Assembly (NCBI GenBank): GCA_026388545.1
Contig: JAPLJS010000072.1
Location: forward strand, 1 to 35,192
Length of the DNA: 35,192 nt
Direction: 5' to 3'
Source of the DNA: Deltaproteobacteria bacterium
Lineage (GTDB): Bacteria; Desulfobacterota; Syntrophia; Syntrophales; UBA2185
Each line of letters begins with the position of its first letter. Position 1 is the first letter of the stretch. Under the pieces are notes generated by a model. The model made no database searches. It worked only from the letters and a program-made list of their open reading frames with translations, and had not been told where the DNA came from. Both the position numbers and the translations under genes were made by a program. Below, piece after piece: positions 11,301 to 23,312 of the stretch.

Positions 11301-14300
11301 TTGAAAAGTCTTGGTATTTGTATAGGTGCGTCAACATTATCAGCAGTCGGTATTACGAGAGATAAAGACGGTCAAATTCATAAGACATCCATAAATGTCA
11401 GGCCCCACCATGGCAATCCGCGAGAAGCCCTCCTGGAAACCCTAATAAATTTAGGTGTTGACGGCTATGACAGAATAGCTGTAACGGGAAGAAAATTCAG
11501 GCATGCCGTAAATCTTTCCTCTATTTCAGAGCCGGAAGCGGTCGAATCTGCGCTTTTTCATTTAAACGGCAATGGGCAGAACCTTGATGCTGTCATTAGT
11601 GCCGGAGGGGAAACCTTCATGGTTTATGTCATGGGAAAAGATGGAAGAATTTGCTCGGTTCAGACCGGGAATAAATGTGCATCGGGAACGGGAGAATTTT
11701 TTGTTCAGCAGCTCAACCGAATAGGGATATCCGTTAGCGAAGCAATTCATCATGCTGACGAAGAAAGACCTTATAAGGTCTCGGGTCGATGCAGTGTATT
11801 TTGTAAAAGTGATTGCACTCATGCGACAAATAAGGGGGTTCACAAAGGAAAAATTGTCGCAGGGCTTTGCAAGATGATGGCCGGTAAAATCATCGAAATT
11901 ATCAAGCAAATTCCCAGGAATGACATTATGATTATCGGGGGAACCGCACAAAATCCGGTTATGGTCAGCTATCTTCAAAAAGAGATAAAAAATTTGATTG
12001 TTCCGGAAGAAGCCCCTTATTTCGAAGCCCTGGGATCTGCATTATGGGCGCTCGATCACGAAACGGTTAAGTTGCCGGAAAAGAAAAGGCTCTTCAAAAA
12101 AGGCGGGAATTCTTTTTCCATCCTGCCGCCGTTGAACAGCGCACTCGGCATGGTCGATTTCAAAACGGCCGAGAGGGGGGTCGCGCAGGAAAATGACCGT
12201 TGTGTGATCGGACTCGACGTGGGGTCAACAACAACAAAGGCGGTAATCCTCAGGCTGCAAGACGATAAAGTCTTAGCGTCTGTATACCTGCGGACAAAAG
12301 GTAATCCTGTTCAAGCGTCAAGAGAATGTTACGCTGATCTTTATGCTCAGTTGGGCGAACTCGGAGAAGAAATAAAAATAGTTGGATTGGGTGTAACAGG
12401 CTCCGGCAGGCAGATAGCAGCGTTGCATGCCATGACAGGCGGTATTATAAATGAAATTATCGCCCATGCTACCGGGGCATTGTTTTTTGATCAGACTGTA
12501 GACACGATCTTCGAGATTGGCGGCCAGGACGCCAAATATACCTATATTAAAAATGGCGTACCATCGGACTATGCCATGAATGACGCCTGTAGTGCAGGTA
12601 CGGGATCTTTTCTGGAGGAAGCCGCAAAAGAGACGATGGGGATTGAGATGGAGGACATCGGCAGTATAGCAATTCAGGGACAGAATCCTCCAAATTTCAA
12701 TGACCAGTGTGCGGCTTTTATAAGCAGTGATATTAAGAATGCCTCTCATGAAGGCATGACGAGAGAAGATATTGTAGCCGGTCTCGTATATTCTATATGC
12801 ATGAACTATGATAATCGGGTCAAGGGAAACAGACCTGTAGGCGACAACATATTTATGCAGGGTGGCGTCTGCTATAACAAGGCGGTGCCGGTGGCAATGG
12901 CAGCCCTTACAGGGAAGCGAATTGTCGTCCCGCCGGAATCGGGACTGATGGGTGCCTTTGGGGTCGCACTCGAAATAAAAGGCATGTTACAGCTAAATCT
13001 CCTCCGGGAAAAAGATTTTTCTCTTAAAACATTAAGAGATAGGACCATCGCATACGGAGAACCATTTATCTGTAATGGGGGCAAAGAGAAGTGTGACCGT
13101 AAATGTGAAGTGGCGCGGATTGTCATAGAAGGGACAATTTATCCGTTCGGCGGAGCTTGCAACAGATGGTATAATCAACGCTTTAATATTCACGTTGATA
13201 CAGAAAACCTGAACCTTGTCAAAATGCACGATAATCTCACCTTTAATAAGTATATTCCTCAGCCGGAGGAACTGGGAGTTAAAGAAATTTCGAAAACAAT
13301 CGGGATTAATAAATCTTTTTTGGTAAATACGTATTATCCGCTGTATTACCACTTTTTTTCCCGGATTGGTCTTCGCGTCCTCATTTCAGACCTTTCAGAA
13401 CAGGAAGGTGTTGACCGTCAGAGAGCGCCCTTCTGCTATCCCGCGGAAATTTCGCATGGCTACCTTCAGAATCTCTTAAAGAAGAAACCGGATTATCTTT
13501 TTCTGCCTCAGTTAAAAGGCGATTACGCGGAAAACGGAGATAGAAAAGGCATAACCTGCCCCCTCTCACAAGGAGAACCCTATTATCTGTCAAGCGCCTT
13601 TAAGGATATGGAGATATTTGGAAAACTGAAGGAAGAAGGTAAAATCATAATGCCTGTTATTGATTTTTCCGGAGGATATGAGGCGGCAGAAGATGCTTTT
13701 ATATCCACAGCAAGAAAGCTTGGCTGCCGGAAGAATGCGGCTCGCAAGGCATTCTCTGAAGCGGTCAAAGTTCAAACAGGCATTCATAAAGAAATGAAAG
13801 AGGCGGGTTTGCGTTTTCTACGTGAGCTCGAAGAGGATCCTGATCGTACCGCTGTGGTTATCTTGGGAAGATCATACAATGCCTTTGTACCAGAGGCGAA
13901 TATGGGAATTCCTCATAAATTCGCATCCAGAGGCGTGCCCGTAATTCCCTTTGATTTTCTTCCGTTAGAAAAAGAGCCGGTCAATGATAATATGTACTGG
14001 TCAACAGGGCAGTCGATTCTCAAAGGAGCAACGTTTATAGAAAAACACCCGCAACTCTTTGGCTGCTATATTACCAATTTCTCCTGTGGTCCTGATTCAT
14101 TCCTTGTAGGGTACTTCCGCACTATTATGGGGAAAAAGCCTTTTTTAATCCTTGAATTGGATTCTCACGTGGCCGATGCGGGACTGGAAACGAGAATCGA
14201 GGCATTCATGGATATCATAAAAAATTACCGAGAATTGGGAAAACGGGAACAACATAGACGTGTTACACATTATTCTTCACCAAAAGCGGCGCATTTTGAT

Positions 14301-15578
14301 TATAGGAAACAGGAGTTCATCGATTCAAAGGGGAGAGGTTACCCATTCCATCACCCCCGGACGCATCTCATTATTCCGTCCATGGGGCGTTTCCTGAACG
14401 ATGCAACCTCTGCCGTATTCAGATCGATAGGTATCCGCGCATCGGTACTTCCACCCGCAGATGATCAAGTTCTCAAACTCGGAAGGGGCAACACAACCTG
14501 TAAGGAATGCCTGCCGCTGTTGCTTACCGTTGGCAGTCTCCTGAAATATTTGAAACAAAGGGGTGATTCGGACGAACTTTTAGTCTACTTCATGCCGACA
14601 GCATCCGGTCCCTGCCGGTTCGGCCAATACTCTCCCTTTATCAGTCAACTTATTGCCCGAAACGAGATAGAAGACGTCGCCGTATTTTCCCCTCAAGCCG
14701 AAAATAGTTACACCGAGTTAGGCGGCAACGAATTCACCTTGAAACTATGGTCGTGCCTGGTTATAGCTGATATCATGCAGGATATTTATTCAATTCTTCT
14801 GACAAACGCTGTGGACAAAGATCTGGCCCTGGAGATTTATAATAAGGAATCGAAAAGAATCATTGAGGTCTTTGAACATTCGCCCAATTTTAGAGACCTT
14901 CAAAAGACCCTCAAGACTGTAGCAAAGAACTTTCAGAAGATACCTGTAAAAAGGCATGTGAATGAAACTCCTACTATTCTCCTTACGGGTGAGATATTTG
15001 TCCGGCATGATGATATTTCAAGACAATTCCTCGTTGAGAAACTGGCCCAGCAGGGATTTGCAACCAAGGTTTCCAGTGTGATGGAATGGATTTATTACAC
15101 AGACTGGTGCTTCGAAAAGGGTTTATCGGCGGATATGCCTAATTTCCAAAAACGGGTTTCCCTTTTTCTGAGAGCGACCTGGATGAGAAGATATGAGAAA
15201 ACATACAAGAAAATCATGGTACAGTCAGATTTGTTCCAATATCGGCTGGAGAATGTCGATCATCTTATCAGTAATATCCAGCACTTGATCAATCCGGAAC
15301 TGACCGGTGAGGCTGTATTGACCGTAGGGGCGGCAATAACCGAGATTTTCTACCAGTATTGCGGAGTTATAGCCATCGGCCCCTTCGGTTGTATGCCCAA
15401 TCGTCTGTCGGAAGCCATCCTGTCAAGAGAGATGGGCACAGAGCTTCCCTTTCTGGCCATTGAAAGCGACGGGAATCTTTTCCCGCAGATTATCACGGCA
15501 AAATTGGAGGTGTTTATATTACAAGCATTGAGGTTACAGAGAAAAATGATGTACTCAAACAGGAAGAGTACTCACTGA
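11301..15578 (+). CDS. Giant activase / 2-hydroxyacyl-CoA dehydratase-like fusion protein
   Basis: A 1425-residue protein. Residues 1-255 and 300-565 are two tandem BcrA/BadF/HgdC activase modules (ASKHA ATPase fold). Each has the two Cys that ligate the bridging [4Fe-4S] cluster in HgdC: C126/C164 (NKCASGTG, GRCSVFC) and C430/C470 (NDACSAGTG, DQCAAF). The second has a canonical IGLDVGSTTTKAVI phosphate loop, the first a weaker GICIGASTLSAV. From about 590 comes a DUF2229-type region (YPFGGACNRWYNQRF, FCYPAEISHGYL), then further HgdB/dehydratase-like segments (FSCGPDSFL, CKECLPLLLTVGSLLKYL, FGPFGCMPNR-like IGPFGCMPNRLSEAI). Such proteins couple ATP hydrolysis to low-potential electron transfer. 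Their substrate is unknown. TTG start with GAGGG 8 nt upstream. No dehydratase partner genes adjoin. Confidence 0.88.
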   Translation: MKSLGICIGASTLSAVGITRDKDGQIHKTSINVRPHHGNPREALLETLINLGVDGYDRIAVTGRKFRHAVNLSSISEPEAVESALFHLNGNGQNLDAVISAGGETFMVYVMGKDGRICSVQTGNKCASGTGEFFVQQLNRIGISVSEAIHHADEERPYKVSGRCSVFCKSDCTHATNKGVHKGKIVAGLCKMMAGKIIEIIKQIPRNDIMIIGGTAQNPVMVSYLQKEIKNLIVPEEAPYFEALGSALWALDHETVKLPEKKRLFKKGGNSFSILPPLNSALGMVDFKTAERGVAQENDRCVIGLDVGSTTTKAVILRLQDDKVLASVYLRTKGNPVQASRECYADLYAQLGELGEEIKIVGLGVTGSGRQIAALHAMTGGIINEIIAHATGALFFDQTVDTIFEIGGQDAKYTYIKNGVPSDYAMNDACSAGTGSFLEEAAKETMGIEMEDIGSIAIQGQNPPNFNDQCAAFISSDIKNASHEGMTREDIVAGLVYSICMNYDNRVKGNRPVGDNIFMQGGVCYNKAVPVAMAALTGKRIVVPPESGLMGAFGVALEIKGMLQLNLLREKDFSLKTLRDRTIAYGEPFICNGGKEKCDRKCEVARIVIEGTIYPFGGACNRWYNQRFNIHVDTENLNLVKMHDNLTFNKYIPQPEELGVKEISKTIGINKSFLVNTYYPLYYHFFSRIGLRVLISDLSEQEGVDRQRAPFCYPAEISHGYLQNLLKKKPDYLFLPQLKGDYAENGDRKGITCPLSQGEPYYLSSAFKDMEIFGKLKEEGKIIMPVIDFSGGYEAAEDAFISTARKLGCRKNAARKAFSEAVKVQTGIHKEMKEAGLRFLRELEEDPDRTAVVILGRSYNAFVPEANMGIPHKFASRGVPVIPFDFLPLEKEPVNDNMYWSTGQSILKGATFIEKHPQLFGCYITNFSCGPDSFLVGYFRTIMGKKPFLILELDSHVADAGLETRIEAFMDIIKNYRELGKREQHRRVTHYSSPKAAHFDYRKQEFIDSKGRGYPFHHPRTHLIIPSMGRFLNDATSAVFRSIGIRASVLPPADDQVLKLGRGNTTCKECLPLLLTVGSLLKYLKQRGDSDELLVYFMPTASGPCRFGQYSPFISQLIARNEIEDVAVFSPQAENSYTELGGNEFTLKLWSCLVIADIMQDIYSILLTNAVDKDLALEIYNKESKRIIEVFEHSPNFRDLQKTLKTVAKNFQKIPVKRHVNETPTILLTGEIFVRHDDISRQFLVEKLAQQGFATKVSSVMEWIYYTDWCFEKGLSADMPNFQKRVSLFLRATWMRRYEKTYKKIMVQSDLFQYRLENVDHLISNIQHLINPELTGEAVLTVGAAITEIFYQYCGVIAIGPFGCMPNRLSEAILSREMGTELPFLAIESDGNLFPQIITAKLEVFILQALRLQRKMMYSNRKSTH

Positions 15579-15722: not shown

Positions 15723-17186
15723 ATGGAAAGTAAAAACAGAAAAACCTTTATCATGTTTCTGCTGGCTTTTCTGATAGCGTCTTTTATCGTTTCTCTTGTG
15801 GAGGTATTGAGGTCATCTTTTATTCCTGTTGGACCTGATGTTCAGACAGTATCGGCGGTTTCATCAGCGGATAATCCTCGTTCACCGGGATCGTTTGCTG
15901 ATCTGGCTGAGAAATTGAAACCGTCCGTTGTAAATATCAGTACAACGAAAACAATCCGCTCCGGCCGTGGAGGACAATCCAGATCGCCTTTTGACCGATA
16001 CTTTTGGGGAGATGATTTCTTTGATAGATTTTTTGGCGACATACCCAAGAGAGAATTCAAACAGAGGAGTCTCGGTTCCGGTTTTATCATTAGTCATGAC
16101 GGCTATATTTTCACGAACAATCACGTTGTTGAGCAGGCCGACAAGATACTGGTTAAACTTTCAACGGGAAAGGAGTATGAAGCCAAGGTCATTGGCAGGG
16201 ATGCAAAAACGGACCTCGCTCTTATAAAAATTAAACCGGGCGAAAGTCTACCTGTTGCTGAAATAGGCGATTCCGAGAAATTGCGTGTCGGCGACTGGGT
16301 TCTTGCCATCGGAAACCCCTTCGGCCTTGAACAGACGGTAACCGCGGGCATTATCAGCGCTAAGGGCAGGGTGATAGGCGCTGGACCCTATGATAATTTC
16401 ATTCAAACGGACGCCTCCATCAATCCCGGGAATAGCGGGGGGCCTCTTTTTAATATGGAAGGTAAAGTGATAGGCATTAATGCGGTAATTATAGCCCAGG
16501 GACAGGGCATCGGGTTTGCTATACCGATTAATATGGCCAAAACCGTACTGCCTGACCTCAAATCAAAAGGGAAAGTTACCCGTGCCTGGCTTGGCGTTTC
16601 TGTCCAGGATGTCACCGACGATATAGCCAAGAGTTTTAAACTTAAAGAGAGTGGTGGTGCATTGGTATCCGAAGTATTCAAGGGAGATCCAGCCGACAAG
16701 GCCGGTCTGAGGACAGGGGATCTCATAACCGAGGTGAATGGCAAAAAAATAAAAGATACCCACGAGTTGTTGCTTACGATCGCCTCTTTTCATGTCGGGG
16801 ACAAGGTTGAGATCAAAGCCCTGCGGGATGGTCAGGAAAAGACTTTTCGCATTGTTGTAACAGAAAGAAGGGACCAGCCGGAAGTGGCATCGGCAGAAGA
16901 GACTGCACAAAACTTTGGGATGGTCATACAGGATATCACTCCTGAGATTGCCCGATATCTTGGAATTGCAAGCAGAAGAGGTGTAATTGTTGTTGATGTT
17001 AAAGACGGAAGCACTGCCGATGAGAATGGTATTCAGCCCCAGGACATCATCCTGCAGGTTAATAACGTGAAAATTTCATCCATGAAAGAATACCTGAGGG
17101 AAACATCGAAGAAAAGTGCAAAAAACAGCGTTCTTCTCTTAATCAAGCGGGGCAAGGCAACGTTTTTTGTAAGTCTGCGCAAGTAA
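15723..17186 (+). CDS. degP: Do/HtrA-family periplasmic serine protease
   Basis: A 487-residue DegP/DegQ-like protease for envelope protein quality control. A membrane anchor or signal (about 8-30) precedes a trypsin-like domain with the full catalytic triad: H134 (TNNHVV), D164 (AKTDLALIKI) and S238 (NPGNSGGP). Two PDZ domains follow (about 285-375 and 395-480), each with a recognisable GLRTGDLITEVNGKKI / NGIQPQDIILQVNNVKI core. A GGAGG ribosome site lies about 14 nt before the ATG. It lies 144 bp after the activase gene and 13 bp before the truncated glycosylase gene, so it could be the first gene of the run leading into sufCB. No stress-type promoter was recognised upstream. Confidence 0.93.
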   Translation: MESKNRKTFIMFLLAFLIASFIVSLVEVLRSSFIPVGPDVQTVSAVSSADNPRSPGSFADLAEKLKPSVVNISTTKTIRSGRGGQSRSPFDRYFWGDDFFDRFFGDIPKREFKQRSLGSGFIISHDGYIFTNNHVVEQADKILVKLSTGKEYEAKVIGRDAKTDLALIKIKPGESLPVAEIGDSEKLRVGDWVLAIGNPFGLEQTVTAGIISAKGRVIGAGPYDNFIQTDASINPGNSGGPLFNMEGKVIGINAVIIAQGQGIGFAIPINMAKTVLPDLKSKGKVTRAWLGVSVQDVTDDIAKSFKLKESGGALVSEVFKGDPADKAGLRTGDLITEVNGKKIKDTHELLLTIASFHVGDKVEIKALRDGQEKTFRIVVTERRDQPEVASAEETAQNFGMVIQDITPEIARYLGIASRRGVIVVDVKDGSTADENGIQPQDIILQVNNVKISSMKEYLRETSKKSAKNSVLLLIKRGKATFFVSLRK

Positions 17187-17199
17187 TGAATGGTTCTGT

Positions 17200-17730
17200 A
17201 TGTATAGGGGCCATTATCTGCTTGCGATATATGAAACACTGAATGCTCATTTCGGTGACCTCCACTGGTGGCCTGGTGATTCCCCTTTTGAGGTGATTGT
17301 CGGAGCAATACTCACCCAGAATACGGCATGGAGAAATGTTGAAAGTGCCATATCAAAACTGAAAACGAAAGGCATCCTTTACCCCGAGGGGATTTTCAAA
17401 ACAGATGACCAAACACTTGCTGATCTTATTCGACCATCGGGATATTACAACATTAAGACCCAGAGATTAAAGTCATTTATACGGTTTCTCTATGAGGTGT
17501 ATAATGGCAACCTGGACAGCATGTTTGCGGAAGACCTTTGGCGCCTGAGAGGAAAGTTGCTTACGGTCAAGGGTATTGGAGAGGAGACTGCCGACAGTAT
17601 ATTGCTTTACGCGGGAAACAAGCCCATATTCGTTGTTGATGCATATACAAGAAGGATTTTGCAGAGACATGATATTATCCGAAGAGATACCACATATACG
17701 GAGAGGTTTTTGAATGTTACTCGCAATTGA
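17200..17730 (+). CDS. HhH-GPD DNA glycosylase, C-terminally truncated
   Basis: A 176-residue endonuclease III-like protein of the MagIII/HP0602 branch. WWPGDSPFEVIVGAILTQNT, the helix-hairpin-helix LLTVKGIGEETADSILLYAG and the catalytic Asp in FVVDAYTRRIL (the GPD element) are all present. Members of this branch usually run about 215-225 residues and end with a helical segment, often with a Cys-containing iron-sulfur loop. Here the protein stops about 25 residues after the catalytic Asp, and the end overlaps the start of sufC by 17 bp. The missing tail does not appear in another frame, so a deletion is likelier than a frameshift. It may be inactive or partly active. No good Shine-Dalgarno is seen before ATG 17200. 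Confidence 0.75.
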   Translation: MYRGHYLLAIYETLNAHFGDLHWWPGDSPFEVIVGAILTQNTAWRNVESAISKLKTKGILYPEGIFKTDDQTLADLIRPSGYYNIKTQRLKSFIRFLYEVYNGNLDSMFAEDLWRLRGKLLTVKGIGEETADSILLYAGNKPIFVVDAYTRRILQRHDIIRRDTTYTERFLNVTRN

Positions 17731-18442
17731 GAATTTGTCAGTCGAAATTGCCGAAAAAGAAGTACTTAGGGACGTTAATCTGGCAATCGGCCAAGGAGAA
17801 ACCCACGTCCTTTTCGGAAAAAACGGATCGGGAAAGACAACCCTGTTGATGGCTATTATGGGATTTTCCGGGTGCCGCATCACGGGTGGAAAGATAACAT
17901 TTAAAGGTGTGGATATTACCCATCTTCCCATTAATGAAAGGGCAAAACTGGGTATAGGGATGTCATTTCAGCGGCCCCCGACCGTACGAGGGCTCAAGGT
18001 GCATGATCTTATCAGGACATTCAACAATAACAGTGAAGAAACCATTGAACAGGTCGCAGGCAGCCTGAACTTTACAGAATTCATGGAGCGGGATATCAAC
18101 CTCGGTTTTTCCGGCGGTGAAATAAAAAAATCCGAACTCCTTCAGCTTATCGTCCAGAACCCGGAACTGATCCTCCTGGACGAACCGGAATCGGGAGTTG
18201 ATCTGGAAAATATCAAAATCATCGGAAGGGTCATTAAAAAGCTGCTTCAGAAAAATCTCAGGAGACAGCGCTTTAAGTCGGGCCTCGTTATCACCCACAC
18301 GGGACTTATCCTGAATTACCTTGAGGCGGACAAGGGCCACCTCATGCTCAACGGCAGGATTACATGCGAGGGCAATCCCAGAGAGATGTTTGAGACCATT
18401 GAAAGCCGCGGTTACGAGGAGTGCGCCAGATGTCAAAGATAG
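17714..18442 (+). CDS. sufC: SufC-type Fe-S cluster assembly ATPase
   Basis: A 242-residue cytoplasmic ABC ATPase that drives Fe-S cluster building on SufB-type scaffolds. Walker A GKNGSGKTT, the Q-loop SFQRPPTV, the SufC-style signature GFSGGEIKKSELLQ and Walker B LILLDEPESGVDLENI are intact. SufC family features (FSGGE.KK.E and LDEP.SG.D) separate it from transport ATPases. GAGAGG lies about 7 nt before the ATG, inside the end of the truncated glycosylase gene. The stop overlaps the start of sufB by 13 bp, so the two are translationally coupled. No sufS, sufU, sufD or sufA is adjacent, so this is the minimal two-gene arrangement. Confidence 0.93.
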   Translation: MLLAIENLSVEIAEKEVLRDVNLAIGQGETHVLFGKNGSGKTTLLMAIMGFSGCRITGGKITFKGVDITHLPINERAKLGIGMSFQRPPTVRGLKVHDLIRTFNNNSEETIEQVAGSLNFTEFMERDINLGFSGGEIKKSELLQLIVQNPELILLDEPESGVDLENIKIIGRVIKKLLQKNLRRQRFKSGLVITHTGLILNYLEADKGHLMLNGRITCEGNPREMFETIESRGYEECARCQR

Positions 18443-19644
18443 ACGAAAAAGCGAGAACTGCCCTGAAAAAGAAATCACTCTATGGGCCTGATATTGATCT
18501 TGACTGCTTCAGGAGTGAGGCCGTTTCTCATGAATATGATCCCGACTTATCCAACTTTTCCGAAGGAGAGAAAAAGCATATCGAGGGGGTCGGGTTCCTC
18601 ACATCACATGGGGAAAGGACGGGAAGCTTTGTGATGAAGGATCACTCTCCCGTTCAATGCTCTATCCGCCAGGATGGAGTTGAGCTGCTTTCCATGAATG
18701 ATGCCCTGAAGAAATATTACGGACTAACGGACTACTGGTGGAAAGCCGTTGATATTGATGCAGACAAGTACACCGCCCAGGCGGCAGTCGCATTTCATGA
18801 CGGCTATTTCATTCGGGCCAGGGCGGGAATAAAGGCAGAGTACCCAGTACAGGCCTGCCTCTACATCAGTAGCGAGGGCATTGCCCAGAACGTACACAAC
18901 ATGGTTATCGCTGAGGAAGATTCGGAACTTCATATCATCACAGGATGTACAACAGCGCCCCATCTAAAAAAGGGTTTACATGTCGGTGTATCGGAATTCT
19001 ACATTAAAAAGGGTGCAACGGTTACATTTACGATGCTCCATACCTGGGGTGAAGAGATTGTTGTAAGACCGAGAACCTCCGTCTGGGTAGAAGAGGGGGC
19101 GACGTTCATGTCAAATTATGTGTGCATGAAAATGGCTAAATCCGTGCAGATGTACCCCTCGGTCAGATTAAAGGGGAGAAATGCGGTTGCAAGAATCAAC
19201 ACAATCCTCGTTGCCCCGAAGGGATCAGATCTGGATATAGGGGGGCGTGTCTCTCTCGAAGCGCCGGGGACAAAGGCGGAAATTATATCGAGGGCTATTA
19301 CCAGGGGAGGTAACATTATAGCCAGAGGACTCCTCATAGGGCAGGTAGCGGATGTGAAAGCCCACCTCGAATGCAACGGGCTTATCCTATCCGAAGAAGG
19401 CCGCATTCGTGCGATCCCGGAGCTTGACGGGTGGGTCGCCGGAGTGGAAATGTCCCATGAAGCCGCTGTCGGCAAGATATCTCAGGACGAAATAGAATAT
19501 CTCATGTCGCGTGGCTTAAGTGAAGACGAGGCGACAGCTCTGATCGTGAGAGGATTCCTGAACGTCAAGATGGAAGGGCTTCCCAAAGAACTTCAGGACG
19601 AGATCGAAAGGATCGTTTACGAAACCGGCAGCAGCGTCTTCTAG
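18430..19644 (+). CDS. sufB: SufB/SufD-type Fe-S scaffold
   Basis: A 404-residue SufB/SufD-family protein, the scaffold partner of SufC. The beta-helix core is followed by the conserved C-terminal block with HLECNGLILSEEG, AIPELDG, MSHEAAVGKIS and the helix LMSRGLSEDEATALIVRGFL. A Cys (in LECNG), the PELD acid and the HE pair are candidate cluster ligands. The Cys equivalent to E. coli SufB C405 appears absent by eye. It resembles the shorter archaeal/anaerobe scaffold (SMS system) more than the ~490-residue E. coli SufB. The start is set at ATG 18430, with GAGGAG 8 nt upstream. An in-frame GTG at 18421 is less likely. Confidence 0.88.
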   Translation: MSKIDEKARTALKKKSLYGPDIDLDCFRSEAVSHEYDPDLSNFSEGEKKHIEGVGFLTSHGERTGSFVMKDHSPVQCSIRQDGVELLSMNDALKKYYGLTDYWWKAVDIDADKYTAQAAVAFHDGYFIRARAGIKAEYPVQACLYISSEGIAQNVHNMVIAEEDSELHIITGCTTAPHLKKGLHVGVSEFYIKKGATVTFTMLHTWGEEIVVRPRTSVWVEEGATFMSNYVCMKMAKSVQMYPSVRLKGRNAVARINTILVAPKGSDLDIGGRVSLEAPGTKAEIISRAITRGGNIIARGLLIGQVADVKAHLECNGLILSEEGRIRAIPELDGWVAGVEMSHEAAVGKISQDEIEYLMSRGLSEDEATALIVRGFLNVKMEGLPKELQDEIERIVYETGSSVF

Positions 19645-19691: not shown

Positions 19692-20783
19692 GTGCCGGTC
19701 ATCAATCAGGTTCCCATGTCTTACCTATACGATTATACGGGCGTCATTCACATCCACTCAGCCTACTCATTCGACGGTCGGACTTCTATGCCGGATATTT
19801 TGGAAGCGGCAAGGAGAAACTCCCTCGATTTTGTCATGCTTACCGATCACTCCAACCTGCGGGCGAGGGAAGAAGGCTTTGAGGGCTGGAACGGCGATAC
19901 ACTGCTTATCGTCGGACAGGAAATTGCCCCCCGATTCAACCACTACATTGCCTTCGAGACCAATACGCCCGTGATTTTTCCGGAGGACGAACAGGATATT
20001 AACCCCCAGATATACATCGATCATGTTCGGGCACAGGGAGGGATCGGCTTCATCGCCCACCCAGACCATGAAGGAACGAATATGTTTCACGTGAAACATT
20101 TCCCCTGGTTAGACTGGACAGCAACCGGTTACACAGGGATTGGGATATGGGACTTTATGTCGGATTGGCAAAGTACCCTGAATGGATACATCGGGGCCCT
20201 CTTCAGTTATTTCTTCCCTGCCTTTTTCCTCAGAGGACCAAAAGAAGAAACCTTACAGCGATGGGATCGATTGAACCAGAGCTCTAAAGTGGTTGGTATC
20301 GGTGAACTTGACAATCATAACTCCATAGTAAAGGCGTTGGGTTTCAATTTTTCCGTTTTTCCCTTCGCGAAGGCATTTAAATTTTTGAGAACTCATGTGA
20401 TAACGGAAACACCTTTTGCCAAAGATAAAAAAAGGGATATTGAATTATTACTATCTGCCCTTAAACAGGGAAGGGTATATATAGCGGGAGAATATTACCA
20501 GGAAGCCAAGGGTTTCTCCTTTGTTTTAACAGATAACAAACGGAACGCGACTATGGGTGATGACTTTATGCTTGATGGAGAAGCTTGCCTTGCCACCATG
20601 CTACCCGTGACCGCGAAGGTCCGCATCATCAAAGACGGGATGCTTTTCATTGAAGAAACTACCCATAACCTGACGTGCCACATCCGCCAGCAGGGAGTTT
20701 ACAGAGTCGAAGCCTATCTAAAAGTCTTTGGCAAATACCTGCCCTGGATATTTTCGAATCCTATTTATGTAAAAAGCGGTTGA
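19692..20783 (+). CDS. PHP-domain metal-dependent phosphoesterase-like protein
   Basis: A 363-residue protein with an N-terminal PHP domain, a metal-dependent phosphoesterase fold. The metal-site motifs are visible: HIHSAYSFDG (HxH), LTDHSNL, the Glu in VGQEI, FIAHPDH and the late GIGELDNHN. The region after about 255 is a beta-rich C-terminal domain (YIAGEYYQEAKGFSFVLTDN ... GVYRVEAYL), often found in PHP proteins of anaerobes. The substrate is unknown. The start is GTG 19692, with the internal ATG 19716 possible. The gene lies 47 bp after sufB and 10 bp before the DUF374 acyltransferase. It contains a perfect parS palindrome at 20083-20098, read as codons for the stretch MFHVKH. Confidence 0.85.
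   Translation: MPVINQVPMSYLYDYTGVIHIHSAYSFDGRTSMPDILEAARRNSLDFVMLTDHSNLRAREEGFEGWNGDTLLIVGQEIAPRFNHYIAFETNTPVIFPEDEQDINPQIYIDHVRAQGGIGFIAHPDHEGTNMFHVKHFPWLDWTATGYTGIGIWDFMSDWQSTLNGYIGALFSYFFPAFFLRGPKEETLQRWDRLNQSSKVVGIGELDNHNSIVKALGFNFSVFPFAKAFKFLRTHVITETPFAKDKKRDIELLLSALKQGRVYIAGEYYQEAKGFSFVLTDNKRNATMGDDFMLDGEACLATMLPVTAKVRIIKDGMLFIEETTHNLTCHIRQQGVYRVEAYLKVFGKYLPWIFSNPIYVKSG
20083..20098. promoter_or_regulatory. parS site (ParB/Spo0J binding centromere)
   Basis: The sequence TGTTTCACGTGAAACA is a perfect 16-bp palindrome and identical to the well-known bacterial parS consensus bound by ParB/Spo0J. It lies inside the PHP gene, as in other bacteria where parS sites occur within coding regions. 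ParB loaded here spreads on flanking DNA and recruits SMC/ParA for chromosome segregation. No other full match was noticed in the window, and parA/parB are not present. Confidence 0.9.
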
Positions 20784-20793
20784 AACGAACCAT

Positions 20794-21480
20794 ATGATCA
20801 AACACCTGTCACGATTCGCTTTGAAATATGGCCTCATCCCATGTGCTCATTATCTCATTCGTTTATACTTTTCTCTGGTAAGAATCAGGACCATTAATGA
20901 GGATATTATTTTTAATCACCTCAAAGGCGGCAAAAAGGCGATAGTCGCGATCTGGCATCAGCGTATCATGCTGATCTTGAGCTATGCCGGAAGGTTTGGC
21001 GGTTACAAGCCTTCCGTTATGATCAGCCAGAGCCGTGACGGGGAAATAATTGCCAGGGTGGCAAACCGTCTCAACTTTCGACCCGTCCGGGGATCAAGTT
21101 CTCGTGGCGGAAAGGGAGCCCTGAGTAGTATGATCACAGACTTGGCCCAACACCCTTTAGCTGCCCATGTTCTGGATGGCCCAAGCGGACCCAGGGGTGT
21201 CATAAAGCCCGGTTTGATTGTAATGGCCCGATCATCCGGAGTCCCGATTTTCCCGGTCTATATTTCAGTCGACCGGGCATGGGTGCTGAATAGCTGGGAT
21301 CGCACTCTGATACCAAAACCTTTCAGTACAATCACTGTGCGCTGGGATGATCCCATAGTGGTCCCGGAGGATATTGATGAGGAGGCATTTGAGAGCACAC
21401 GGAAACAGATTGAGCAGCACATGAAGGAGGATCAGAACAAAGATGATGCGGAGAAGGGATGGAGATCTCCTTTGTTATAA
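20794..21480 (+). CDS. DUF374 lysophospholipid acyltransferase-like protein
   Basis: A 228-residue protein of the DUF374/LpxL-like acyltransferase superfamily, predicted to act at the inner membrane on lipid A or a lysophospholipid. Family landmarks are IVAIWHQRIMLI (WHQ), MISQSRDGEIIARVANRL, the RGSSSRGGKGAL motif and the VLDGPSGPRGVIKPGLIVMARSSGVPIFPV block. The N-terminal helix (about 1-30) could be a membrane anchor. The C-terminus is charged. It follows the PHP gene by 10 bp and is probably the last gene of the plus-strand run. It ends 9 bp before the convergent glutamine cyclotransferase gene. The exact acyl acceptor is not evident. Confidence 0.87.
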   Translation: MIKHLSRFALKYGLIPCAHYLIRLYFSLVRIRTINEDIIFNHLKGGKKAIVAIWHQRIMLILSYAGRFGGYKPSVMISQSRDGEIIARVANRLNFRPVRGSSSRGGKGALSSMITDLAQHPLAAHVLDGPSGPRGVIKPGLIVMARSSGVPIFPVYISVDRAWVLNSWDRTLIPKPFSTITVRWDDPIVVPEDIDEEAFESTRKQIEQHMKEDQNKDDAEKGWRSPLL

Positions 21481-21489
21481 AAATGCCAT

Positions 21490-22359
21490 CTATTTCTGAG
21501 CTTCTAAACGGATCTCAAATAATTTTGGCCAGAACTTTCCTGTTACGAATAAACGGTTATTTTTTGTGTCATACGCGATGCCGTTGAGAACATCGACCCT
21601 TTTGCCATTATCGACCAATCGATATAATCCCCGAAGATCGATCCATCCTAACACCCGCCCTGTCTGCGGTGAAATTCTGGCGATGTATCCCGTATCCCAG
21701 ATATTGGCGAAGATTTCACCTTTTATATATTCGAGCTCGTTGAGGTAAGGTATGGGTCTGCCGCGATCCTTGACCTCGATCTGCTTCACCATGGTAAATT
21801 TCCGGGGATCAAGGAAGCGCAGGATAGCGGTACCATCACTCATGATGAGGTTGTTGCCGTCGCAGGTGATTCCCCAGCCTTCCGTCGGGTAGGAAAACGT
21901 TCTCAGGAGGCGGAACGATTGAAGGTCATAAATAAAACCGGTATGCGATTGCCATGTTAGTTGTATCAGCTTGTTCTGCCATATGGTGATTCCTTCACCG
22001 AAGTATTCTATCGGCAGACGATGACTCTTTAAAATCCCGCCCGTCTTCAGTTCAACTTTGCGCAGGGTCGAGTGTCCATGGCGCCCCGTACCTTCATAGA
22101 GGTATCCCTTATGGAATACAAGTCCCTGTGTGAAGGCTTCGGGATCGTGGGGATAGGTATTTATTATACGGAAACCGTGAATGGTCGCTCCTGTCGTGTC
22201 GATGGGTGCAAGGTTCGGCTCCGCATAAAGGGAAGACGCGTTTCCCCAAGAAGCTTGACCGATCGACAAAAGAGACTCCTCGGAAACAAGAGAAAGTGCG
22301 CCTGATGCATGAAACAAAGCAACAATAATGATGAAGAAGTATTTTCTCAAAGCTACCAA
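21490..22359 (-). CDS. Glutaminyl-peptide cyclotransferase (glutamine cyclotransferase)
   Basis: A 289-residue exported protein of the plant/bacterial glutamine cyclotransferase family (PF05096), a five-bladed beta-propeller that converts N-terminal Gln to pyroglutamate. It has a signal peptide (about 1-30, LRKYFFIIIVALFHASGALS). The hallmarks are YPHDPEAFTQGLVFHKGYLYEGTG, LPIEYFGEGITIWQNKLIQLTW, YPTEGWGITCDGNNLIMSDG, LNELEYIKGEIFANIWDTGYIARI and LNGIAYDTKNNRLFVTGKFWPKLFE, all intact. The start is TTG, either at 22359 or three codons later at 22350, overlapping or abutting the fabD stop at 22353, so it appears coupled to fabD. A functional link to fatty-acid synthesis is not expected. Confidence 0.9.
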   Translation of the reverse strand: MVALRKYFFIIIVALFHASGALSLVSEESLLSIGQASWGNASSLYAEPNLAPIDTTGATIHGFRIINTYPHDPEAFTQGLVFHKGYLYEGTGRHGHSTLRKVELKTGGILKSHRLPIEYFGEGITIWQNKLIQLTWQSHTGFIYDLQSFRLLRTFSYPTEGWGITCDGNNLIMSDGTAILRFLDPRKFTMVKQIEVKDRGRPIPYLNELEYIKGEIFANIWDTGYIARISPQTGRVLGWIDLRGLYRLVDNGKRVDVLNGIAYDTKNNRLFVTGKFWPKLFEIRLEAQK

Positions 22360-23303
22360 CCGCTCTTTGCGAATGTTCTTTCAGCCGTCGAAAAAGTAGT
22401 AATCGATGTACAGCTAATATTCATTGACTTAAAGAAATCACGCAGAGGCCGACCGGGGCCGACCTCATAGATGGTATCCGTCTGTGAAGCAAGACTCTTC
22501 ATATTATCCACCCACAGGACGGAGTTATTCAACTGAGACACGAGATTGTAAATAAGGTCATCATACAGGCCTGAATGAAATCCTCCCCGATAATTTGAGG
22601 TCACCGTTATTGACCTTTCGTGATCTATTCCCTTACCGACCACCCGCAGCGTATCTCCGAACGGTTCGACAATTGTACTCATAAAACGACTATGGAACGG
22701 TGCGCTCACATTAAGCGGTATAAATCGAAAAGGTTTATCTTTTGCCAGCGCCTCCTGCAGCCGTGACTCTGCAACGGACATCGCCATGGCGTCACCGCTG
22801 ATGACCACCTGATTGGCTGAATTTATATTCGCAACGTCAATGGGAAGATCCTTCAATGCTATGTGAACCATTTCCATATCCACATTGTCGGAAATAACAG
22901 CAGCCATAGCCCCGACACCGACCGGAACGGCCTCCTGCATCAATCTGCCACGAATCTGGACAATTCGAACAGCCTCGGATAACGGAAGGGCGCCGGCAGC
23001 AACCAGGGCCGTAAATTCGCCGAGGCTGTGACCGCCGAAGAGAGCCGGCGAAAATCCGAAAAGCATTTGCAAACTGCGGAGCATGGCAACTTCAGTAGTA
23101 AGAATGCATGGCTGGGTAAACTCTGTCAGGTTGAGGCGTTCATCCTCCCCGAAACACATAGCGGCAATGTCCCATCCTGCCGCCTGCGAAGCCTCTTCGT
23201 ACACCTCACGGCTGACGGGAACGTTCTCATAGAAGTCCTTCCCCATACCGGGCCGCTGAGCCCCCTGACCCGGAAATACAACAGCAATCTTATCCTTCTC
23301 CAT
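22353..23303 (-). CDS. fabD: Malonyl-CoA:ACP transacylase
   Basis: A 316-residue FabD that transfers malonyl from CoA to acyl carrier protein for type II fatty acid synthesis. The oxyanion/active-site elements are present: VVFPGQGAQRPGMGKD at the N-terminus, the nucleophilic Ser in GGHSLGEFTALV (S93), the Arg in VQIRGRLMQEAVP, and the catalytic His in NVSAPFHSRFM. The length is normal. The open frame allows a TTG start at 23312, but ATG 23303 has AGGAG at a more natural distance. Other fab genes are absent from the window. The enzyme stands with glutamine cyclotransferase only, and a ~440-bp repeat-bearing spacer lies upstream. A PKS-type acyltransferase is less likely because of the stand-alone format. 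Confidence 0.92.
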   Translation of the reverse strand: MEKDKIAVVFPGQGAQRPGMGKDFYENVPVSREVYEEASQAAGWDIAAMCFGEDERLNLTEFTQPCILTTEVAMLRSLQMLFGFSPALFGGHSLGEFTALVAAGALPLSEAVRIVQIRGRLMQEAVPVGVGAMAAVISDNVDMEMVHIALKDLPIDVANINSANQVVISGDAMAMSVAESRLQEALAKDKPFRFIPLNVSAPFHSRFMSTIVEPFGDTLRVVGKGIDHERSITVTSNYRGGFHSGLYDDLIYNLVSQLNNSVLWVDNMKSLASQTDTIYEVGPGRPLRDFFKSMNISCTSITTFSTAERTFAKSGW

Positions 23304-23312
23304 AATGAACAA

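Follow-up and report, generated by a model that had tools for sequence, protein, structure and literature searches.

The window, by which we mean the whole 35,192-nucleotide stretch that was analysed, is a contig (C72) of a Syntrophales genome of 3,276,582 bases in 128 contigs (G000), and carries on its forward strand, at 19692..20783, a PHP-domain gene encoding a protein of 363 amino acids. Positions 20083..20098 within this gene form a perfect 16-bp palindrome, TGTTTCACGTGAAACA, which is an exact match to the consensus of chromosomal parS and contains the 14-bp parS core GTTTCACGTGAAAC at 20084..20097. The palindrome lies in frame and occupies codons 131–136, encoding (M)FHVKH. The PHP gene is preceded on the same strand by genes for an HtrA/DegP-type protease (15723..17186) and an HhH-GPD DNA glycosylase (17200..17730), both of them parS neighbors across the order, the glycosylase gene being kept whether the PHP gene is present or absent. 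Genes for SufC (17714–18442) and a SufB/D-core protein (18421–19644), together spanning 17714..19644 on the forward strand, separate the glycosylase gene from parS, but only in certain lineages. On the other side of parS lies a forward-strand gene for a DUF374 protein (20794..21480), and next to it, on the reverse strand, are genes for a glutamine cyclotransferase and a FabD-like acyl transferase (21490..23312), which also flank parS where the PHP gene is absent. Farther upstream, at 11301–15578, the window encodes a protein of 1425 aa that contains a DUF2229 domain, a BadF/BcrA-type ATPase of the type of the 2-hydroxyacyl-CoA dehydratase activators.

The first-pass annotation had reported the exact consensus match and judged its chance occurrence in the window to be very unlikely. 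Both statements held, with the site present letter for letter and an exact 16-mer expected by chance (4^-16, by arithmetic) only 8 × 10^-6 times per window and 8 × 10^-4 times per genome. No other match to TGTTTCACGTGAAACA was detected in the window with up to three mismatches allowed, and a count of parS sites, which the annotation had also proposed, yielded no further exact copy in the 3.28-Mb genome. The next-best parS-like sites, one each on contigs C28 and C53, had two mismatches each and were rejected as additional parS sites, being non-palindromic and about as numerous as expected by chance (0.9 by arithmetic). In a sample of 60 genomes of the order Syntrophales, parS with at most one mismatch was present in 50, exactly once in 44 of them, while a reversed control pattern gave zero matches. 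A single site considered without experimental data might be a functionless chance palindrome, but with 8 × 10^-4 copies expected per genome against this recurrence across the order, such a reading is vanishingly improbable. Three more genomes contained the 14-bp core with at most one mismatch, and the core was absent at this threshold from the remaining 7 of 60. The latter include two genomes (G054 and G058) that encode ParB and have a called completeness of 97–100%, pointing to assembly gaps or a diverged site.

Pfam analysis assigned the host gene to the PHP domain (PF02811), and its product scored 94 bits against the NCBIfam model for CehA/McbA-type proteins (NF038032), above the cut-off of 80. 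The PHP metal motifs HxH, DH, HPDH, and DNH were invariant, identifying the product as a PHP metallohydrolase. The predicted structure (mean pLDDT 93) had its best PDB matches among PHP phosphoesterases, e.g. 2anu, and places the parS-encoded peptide in a loop following the HPDH metal-binding motif, where residue changes may be easily tolerated. To collect homologs, 84,980 species genomes were scanned with two conserved peptides, neither overlapping parS, yielding 80 PHP homologs, of which 70 were from Syntrophales and 10 from Elusimicrobia or Planctomycetota. Most of their genomes bear the label Syntrophaceae, Syntrophus, Smithella, or Syntrophales, which indicates that the window belongs to this order; one locus labelled Bacillota (L112), which has parS and a Syntrophales-like gene, is probably mislabelled and was counted as Syntrophales. 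The core GTTTCACGTGAAAC was present without variation at the same codons in all 70 Syntrophales homologs, whereas the 10 outgroup homologs differed from parS at 6–13 of the 16 positions. Correspondingly, Syntrophales members read FHVK[HQP] at this position, where F[DGE]VK or other residues stand in the outgroups. In more distant PHP homologs of the window's own phylum, parS was not found.

Next, we examined codon usage in the 70 Syntrophales genes, defining as conserved those columns in which at least 95% of the proteins agree. Only 4 of the 84 conserved columns used a single codon, and all four lie under parS (TTT, CAC, GTG, and AAA, each in 70/70). Elsewhere in these columns the share of the commonest codon had a median of 51% and reached at best 87%; other conserved phenylalanine and histidine columns used one codon in 53–66% and 57–69% of cases, respectively. 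At codon 131, the last base was always G, supplied by eight different codons. No invariant stretch of bases in the gene was longer than the 14-bp core, the next reaching only 5. One might suppose that FHVKH is a functional PHP peptide and its likeness to parS a by-product, as the FHVK peptide is invariant in 70 homologs and follows a metal-binding motif. We consider this highly improbable, since synonymous positions are frozen only under parS, the palindrome extends into codon 131, where the amino acid varies and the last base is fixed, the outgroup enzymes lack FHVKH, and the sequence persists inside pseudogenes and, in at least 17 genomes, where there is no PHP gene at all. No sign was seen that the enzyme needs FHVK[HQP]. 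Codon freezing and survival of the site without the gene both point to selection at the DNA level that is independent of coding. As judged from these comparisons, parS is a selected site with the constraint acting on DNA rather than on protein, in support of the earlier suggestion that the PHP coding sequence is constrained by a segregation function.

The genome encodes the cognate proteins on contig C78, in the order dnaA, parB, parA, and rsmG. When its ParB was aligned to ParB and Noc structures, arginine and glycine were found at the positions equivalent to R173 and G201 (Caulobacter numbering), which separate readers of parS from readers of the Noc-binding site, NBS (PMC7383237). The aligned ParB-family chains 7bnk and 7bnr likewise have R/G, and the Noc chains have Q/R. 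The protein also contains GERRWRA, a CTP-patch motif of the form GERRxRA (PMC7333895). The first-pass annotation had named a ParB with a different recognition sequence as evidence against its reading; the residues found here are of the parS type, and a standard reader, predicted to bind the site, is present. In two genomes of one genus (g16), the partition genes are in disrepair. In G019 (L233, G019:C6:16500-22500), parA and parB beside dnaA are truncated and broken while parS is perfect. In G035 (L234, G035:C187:1-9000), neither partition gene was seen next to dnaA, a genome search detected no parB, and no parS core was found within one mismatch. ParABS is apparently being lost from genus g16, a pattern that, although confined to one lineage in draft assemblies and no proof, runs in the direction expected if parS exists for ParB.

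Noc sites read TATTTCCCGGGAAATA. A further possibility is that the palindrome is bound by a Noc-type ParB-like regulator, or is an operator of the PHP gene, instead of serving segregation. The genome's ParB does score well against the Noc model TIGR04285, although at 256.6 it falls below the cut-off of 315, and ParB at some parS sites represses neighboring genes in Pseudomonas aeruginosa (PMC7022226). However, the sequence is that of parS and differs from the Noc site, the protein has R/G and is not of the Q173/R201 type, and a site that occurs once per genome, near the origin, and is kept without the PHP gene fits a PHP operator poorly. We therefore regard a regulatory site of either kind as very unlikely.

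The position of parS relative to dnaA was examined in relatives. In a genome of the same family (G003), a 288-kb contig holds the counterparts of both most of the window (49–71 kb) and contig C78 (174–198 kb), with parS and dnaA 136 kb apart. The counterpart of the window's first 2.6 kb is at another place on the G003 contig (229–232 kb), indicating that some rearrangement exists. The window contig ends short of dnaA, and by this synteny its parS probably lies about 136 kb from the gene. Across 22 Syntrophales genomes with parS and dnaA on one piece, the two were 8–136 kb apart, including 100 kb in a closed 3.18-Mb genome (G042). Among 50 draft genomes, 14 had the site and dnaA on a common contig, compared with 2.1 expected for a random position (P ~ 4 × 10^-9); for this calculation, dnaA contigs lacking a known length were assigned 150 kb, and the genomes were assumed to be independent, although they are not entirely so. 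In a further set of 12 genomes, seven had parS and dnaA on a shared contig, at distances of 23–53 kb. These data support the origin-proximal location proposed in the first-pass annotation. In Pseudomonas and Caulobacter, the zone that tolerates additional parS sites measures roughly 600 kb (PMC7333895), and the distances seen here fall inside it.

To examine how closely parS is tied to its host gene, we compared the distribution of the two in the sample of 60 genomes. A full-length PHP gene was present in 30, and in all 30 of these parS lay inside it, with a central mismatch in one (G021). Another 23 genomes have parS and no PHP gene. Seventeen of these 23 keep parS beside its usual neighbors, with the HtrA protease and HhH-GPD glycosylase genes on one flank and those for DUF374, glutamine cyclotransferase, and a FabD-like or ATP-grasp protein on the other; the remaining six (G012, G026, G042, G047, G053, and G056) have moved or different sites. 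SufC and SufB genes stand between the glycosylase and PHP genes in the window and in G001, G005, G015, G036, and G048, and are absent from that place in G003, so that genes have been inserted or lost beside a fixed parS. Five families (f1, f2, f13, f14, and f15) each mix genomes with and without the PHP gene. Within f1, G001 and G002 must have lost the gene separately, given that G005, which shares a genus with G001, retains it. Parsimony applied to this distribution suggests at least six losses of the PHP gene.

Three loci preserve a PHP pseudogene around an intact site. In G001, about 60 bp around parS align at 86% to a PHP gene of the same genus, with a one-base gap adjoining the site; the 16-mer is perfect, and further fragments of the PHP gene persist. 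In G061, in-frame stops and a frame change interrupt a nearly full-length PHP copy; in G068, some 60 codons remain and end in a stop. The core is intact in both. These loci are in draft, mostly metagenome, assemblies, in which single frame changes could be errors, while large deletions could not easily be. A scan for PHP relics that covered all 17 loci lacking the gene in the first sample gave one clear case (G001) and one suggestive case, a fragment of the gene start in G051 (28.1 bits, compared with control maxima of 26.9 for shuffles and 27.7 for the reverse strand), the rest being at background.

The PHP gene is missing from about half of the sampled genomes, most of which have parS in the same place, as might be expected had an intergenic parS been ancestral and had the lineages with a PHP gene acquired it later, by recombination, together with a parS of its own. 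Several observations make this late arrival unlikely. PHP homologs outside the order carry no parS to bring, the relics around intact sites are those of loss and not of gain, and the insertion of a 1.1-kb gene would have had to place the site exactly at codon 132. In addition, the PHP gene and its neighbors diverge together. Across 42 loci, PHP protein distances correlated with those of the HtrA protease (r = 0.78) and the glycosylase (r = 0.87); the yardstick, the correlation between the two neighbors themselves, was no higher, at 0.73, so that PHP inheritance looks vertical. The correlation favors birth in place and later loss over late arrival of the gene.

Collectively, these observations make it very probable that the site is an ordinary ParB–parS centromere that was born by mutation inside the PHP gene at the base of the Syntrophales and outlives its host gene. 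ParB, which judging from its family would act as a CTP clamp, would load at parS, and ParA would then pull the newly copied origin region apart; both the segregation role and ParB binding are predicted here from sequence. We propose that parS arose, at or near the base of the order, by point mutation within the PHP-hydrolase gene, in the loop after HPDH. Selection on DNA would then have frozen TTT CAC GTG AAA (FHVK) and the preceding G. As ParB requires the DNA rather than the protein, the PHP gene could later have been lost in several lineages with parS staying in place. This direction, with the site born in the gene and the gene lost afterwards, is suggested by parsimony and the outgroups rather than by a dated tree. 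It is likely, too, that a few point mutations in an unrelated enzyme gene sufficed to make a centromere, which locked a stretch of the protein and served as a fixed anchor through repeated gene loss, in several cases with pseudogene stages.

The molecular function is canonical, and the evolutionary behavior is the interesting part. The system shares with chromosomal ParABS of Bacillus, Caulobacter, Pseudomonas, and others the 16-bp site (TGTTTCACGTGAAACA), parAB beside dnaA and rsmG, the GERRxRA motif, DNA-reading residues of the ParB type, and a position near the origin. It differs in that a single site is usual in Syntrophales and lies in the PHP gene, away from parAB. parS sites within coding sequences are known, e.g. 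in spo0J of Bacillus subtilis. Like the spo0J site, the Syntrophales site is a centromere site that doubles as codons; unlike it, the site is usually single, has the same host gene order-wide, and persists after the host has decayed or been lost. Species with a single site are also known, such as Xanthomonas campestris, and why parS sites cluster and what drives the clustering is a question that has been raised (PMC7333895). Our literature search found no paper joining parS, ParB, and the PHP domain, nor a relevant one joining parS and Syntrophus, although an earlier notice of the locus is possible. How parS originates, moves, and is retained near the origin is an open question, for which the Syntrophales give a readable record, consisting of site-less outgroup genes, an order with a codon-frozen site, pseudogene intermediates, and clean losses that leave parS behind. 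This makes it possible to test by comparison how a bacterial centromere is born and persists. The locus is also a clear example of a DNA-level function dictating protein sequence, in which FHVKH could mislead as an enzyme motif.

Some lineages have parS sites in other places. In family f19 (G042, G026, and G053; L020–L022, L200, and L205), the PHP gene is absent and parS sits elsewhere, near a sigma-factor gene in two cases, so that parS can move. Family f17 (G040 and G024; L006 and L007/L197) has an extra parS just upstream of hisH-hisF in addition to the one in the usual place. In G066 (L209, positions 1501 and 2315), the neighboring HtrA gene contains another parS, 814 bp from the PHP-borne site and in a different frame, where it encodes VSRET; this second copy may be an emerging site.
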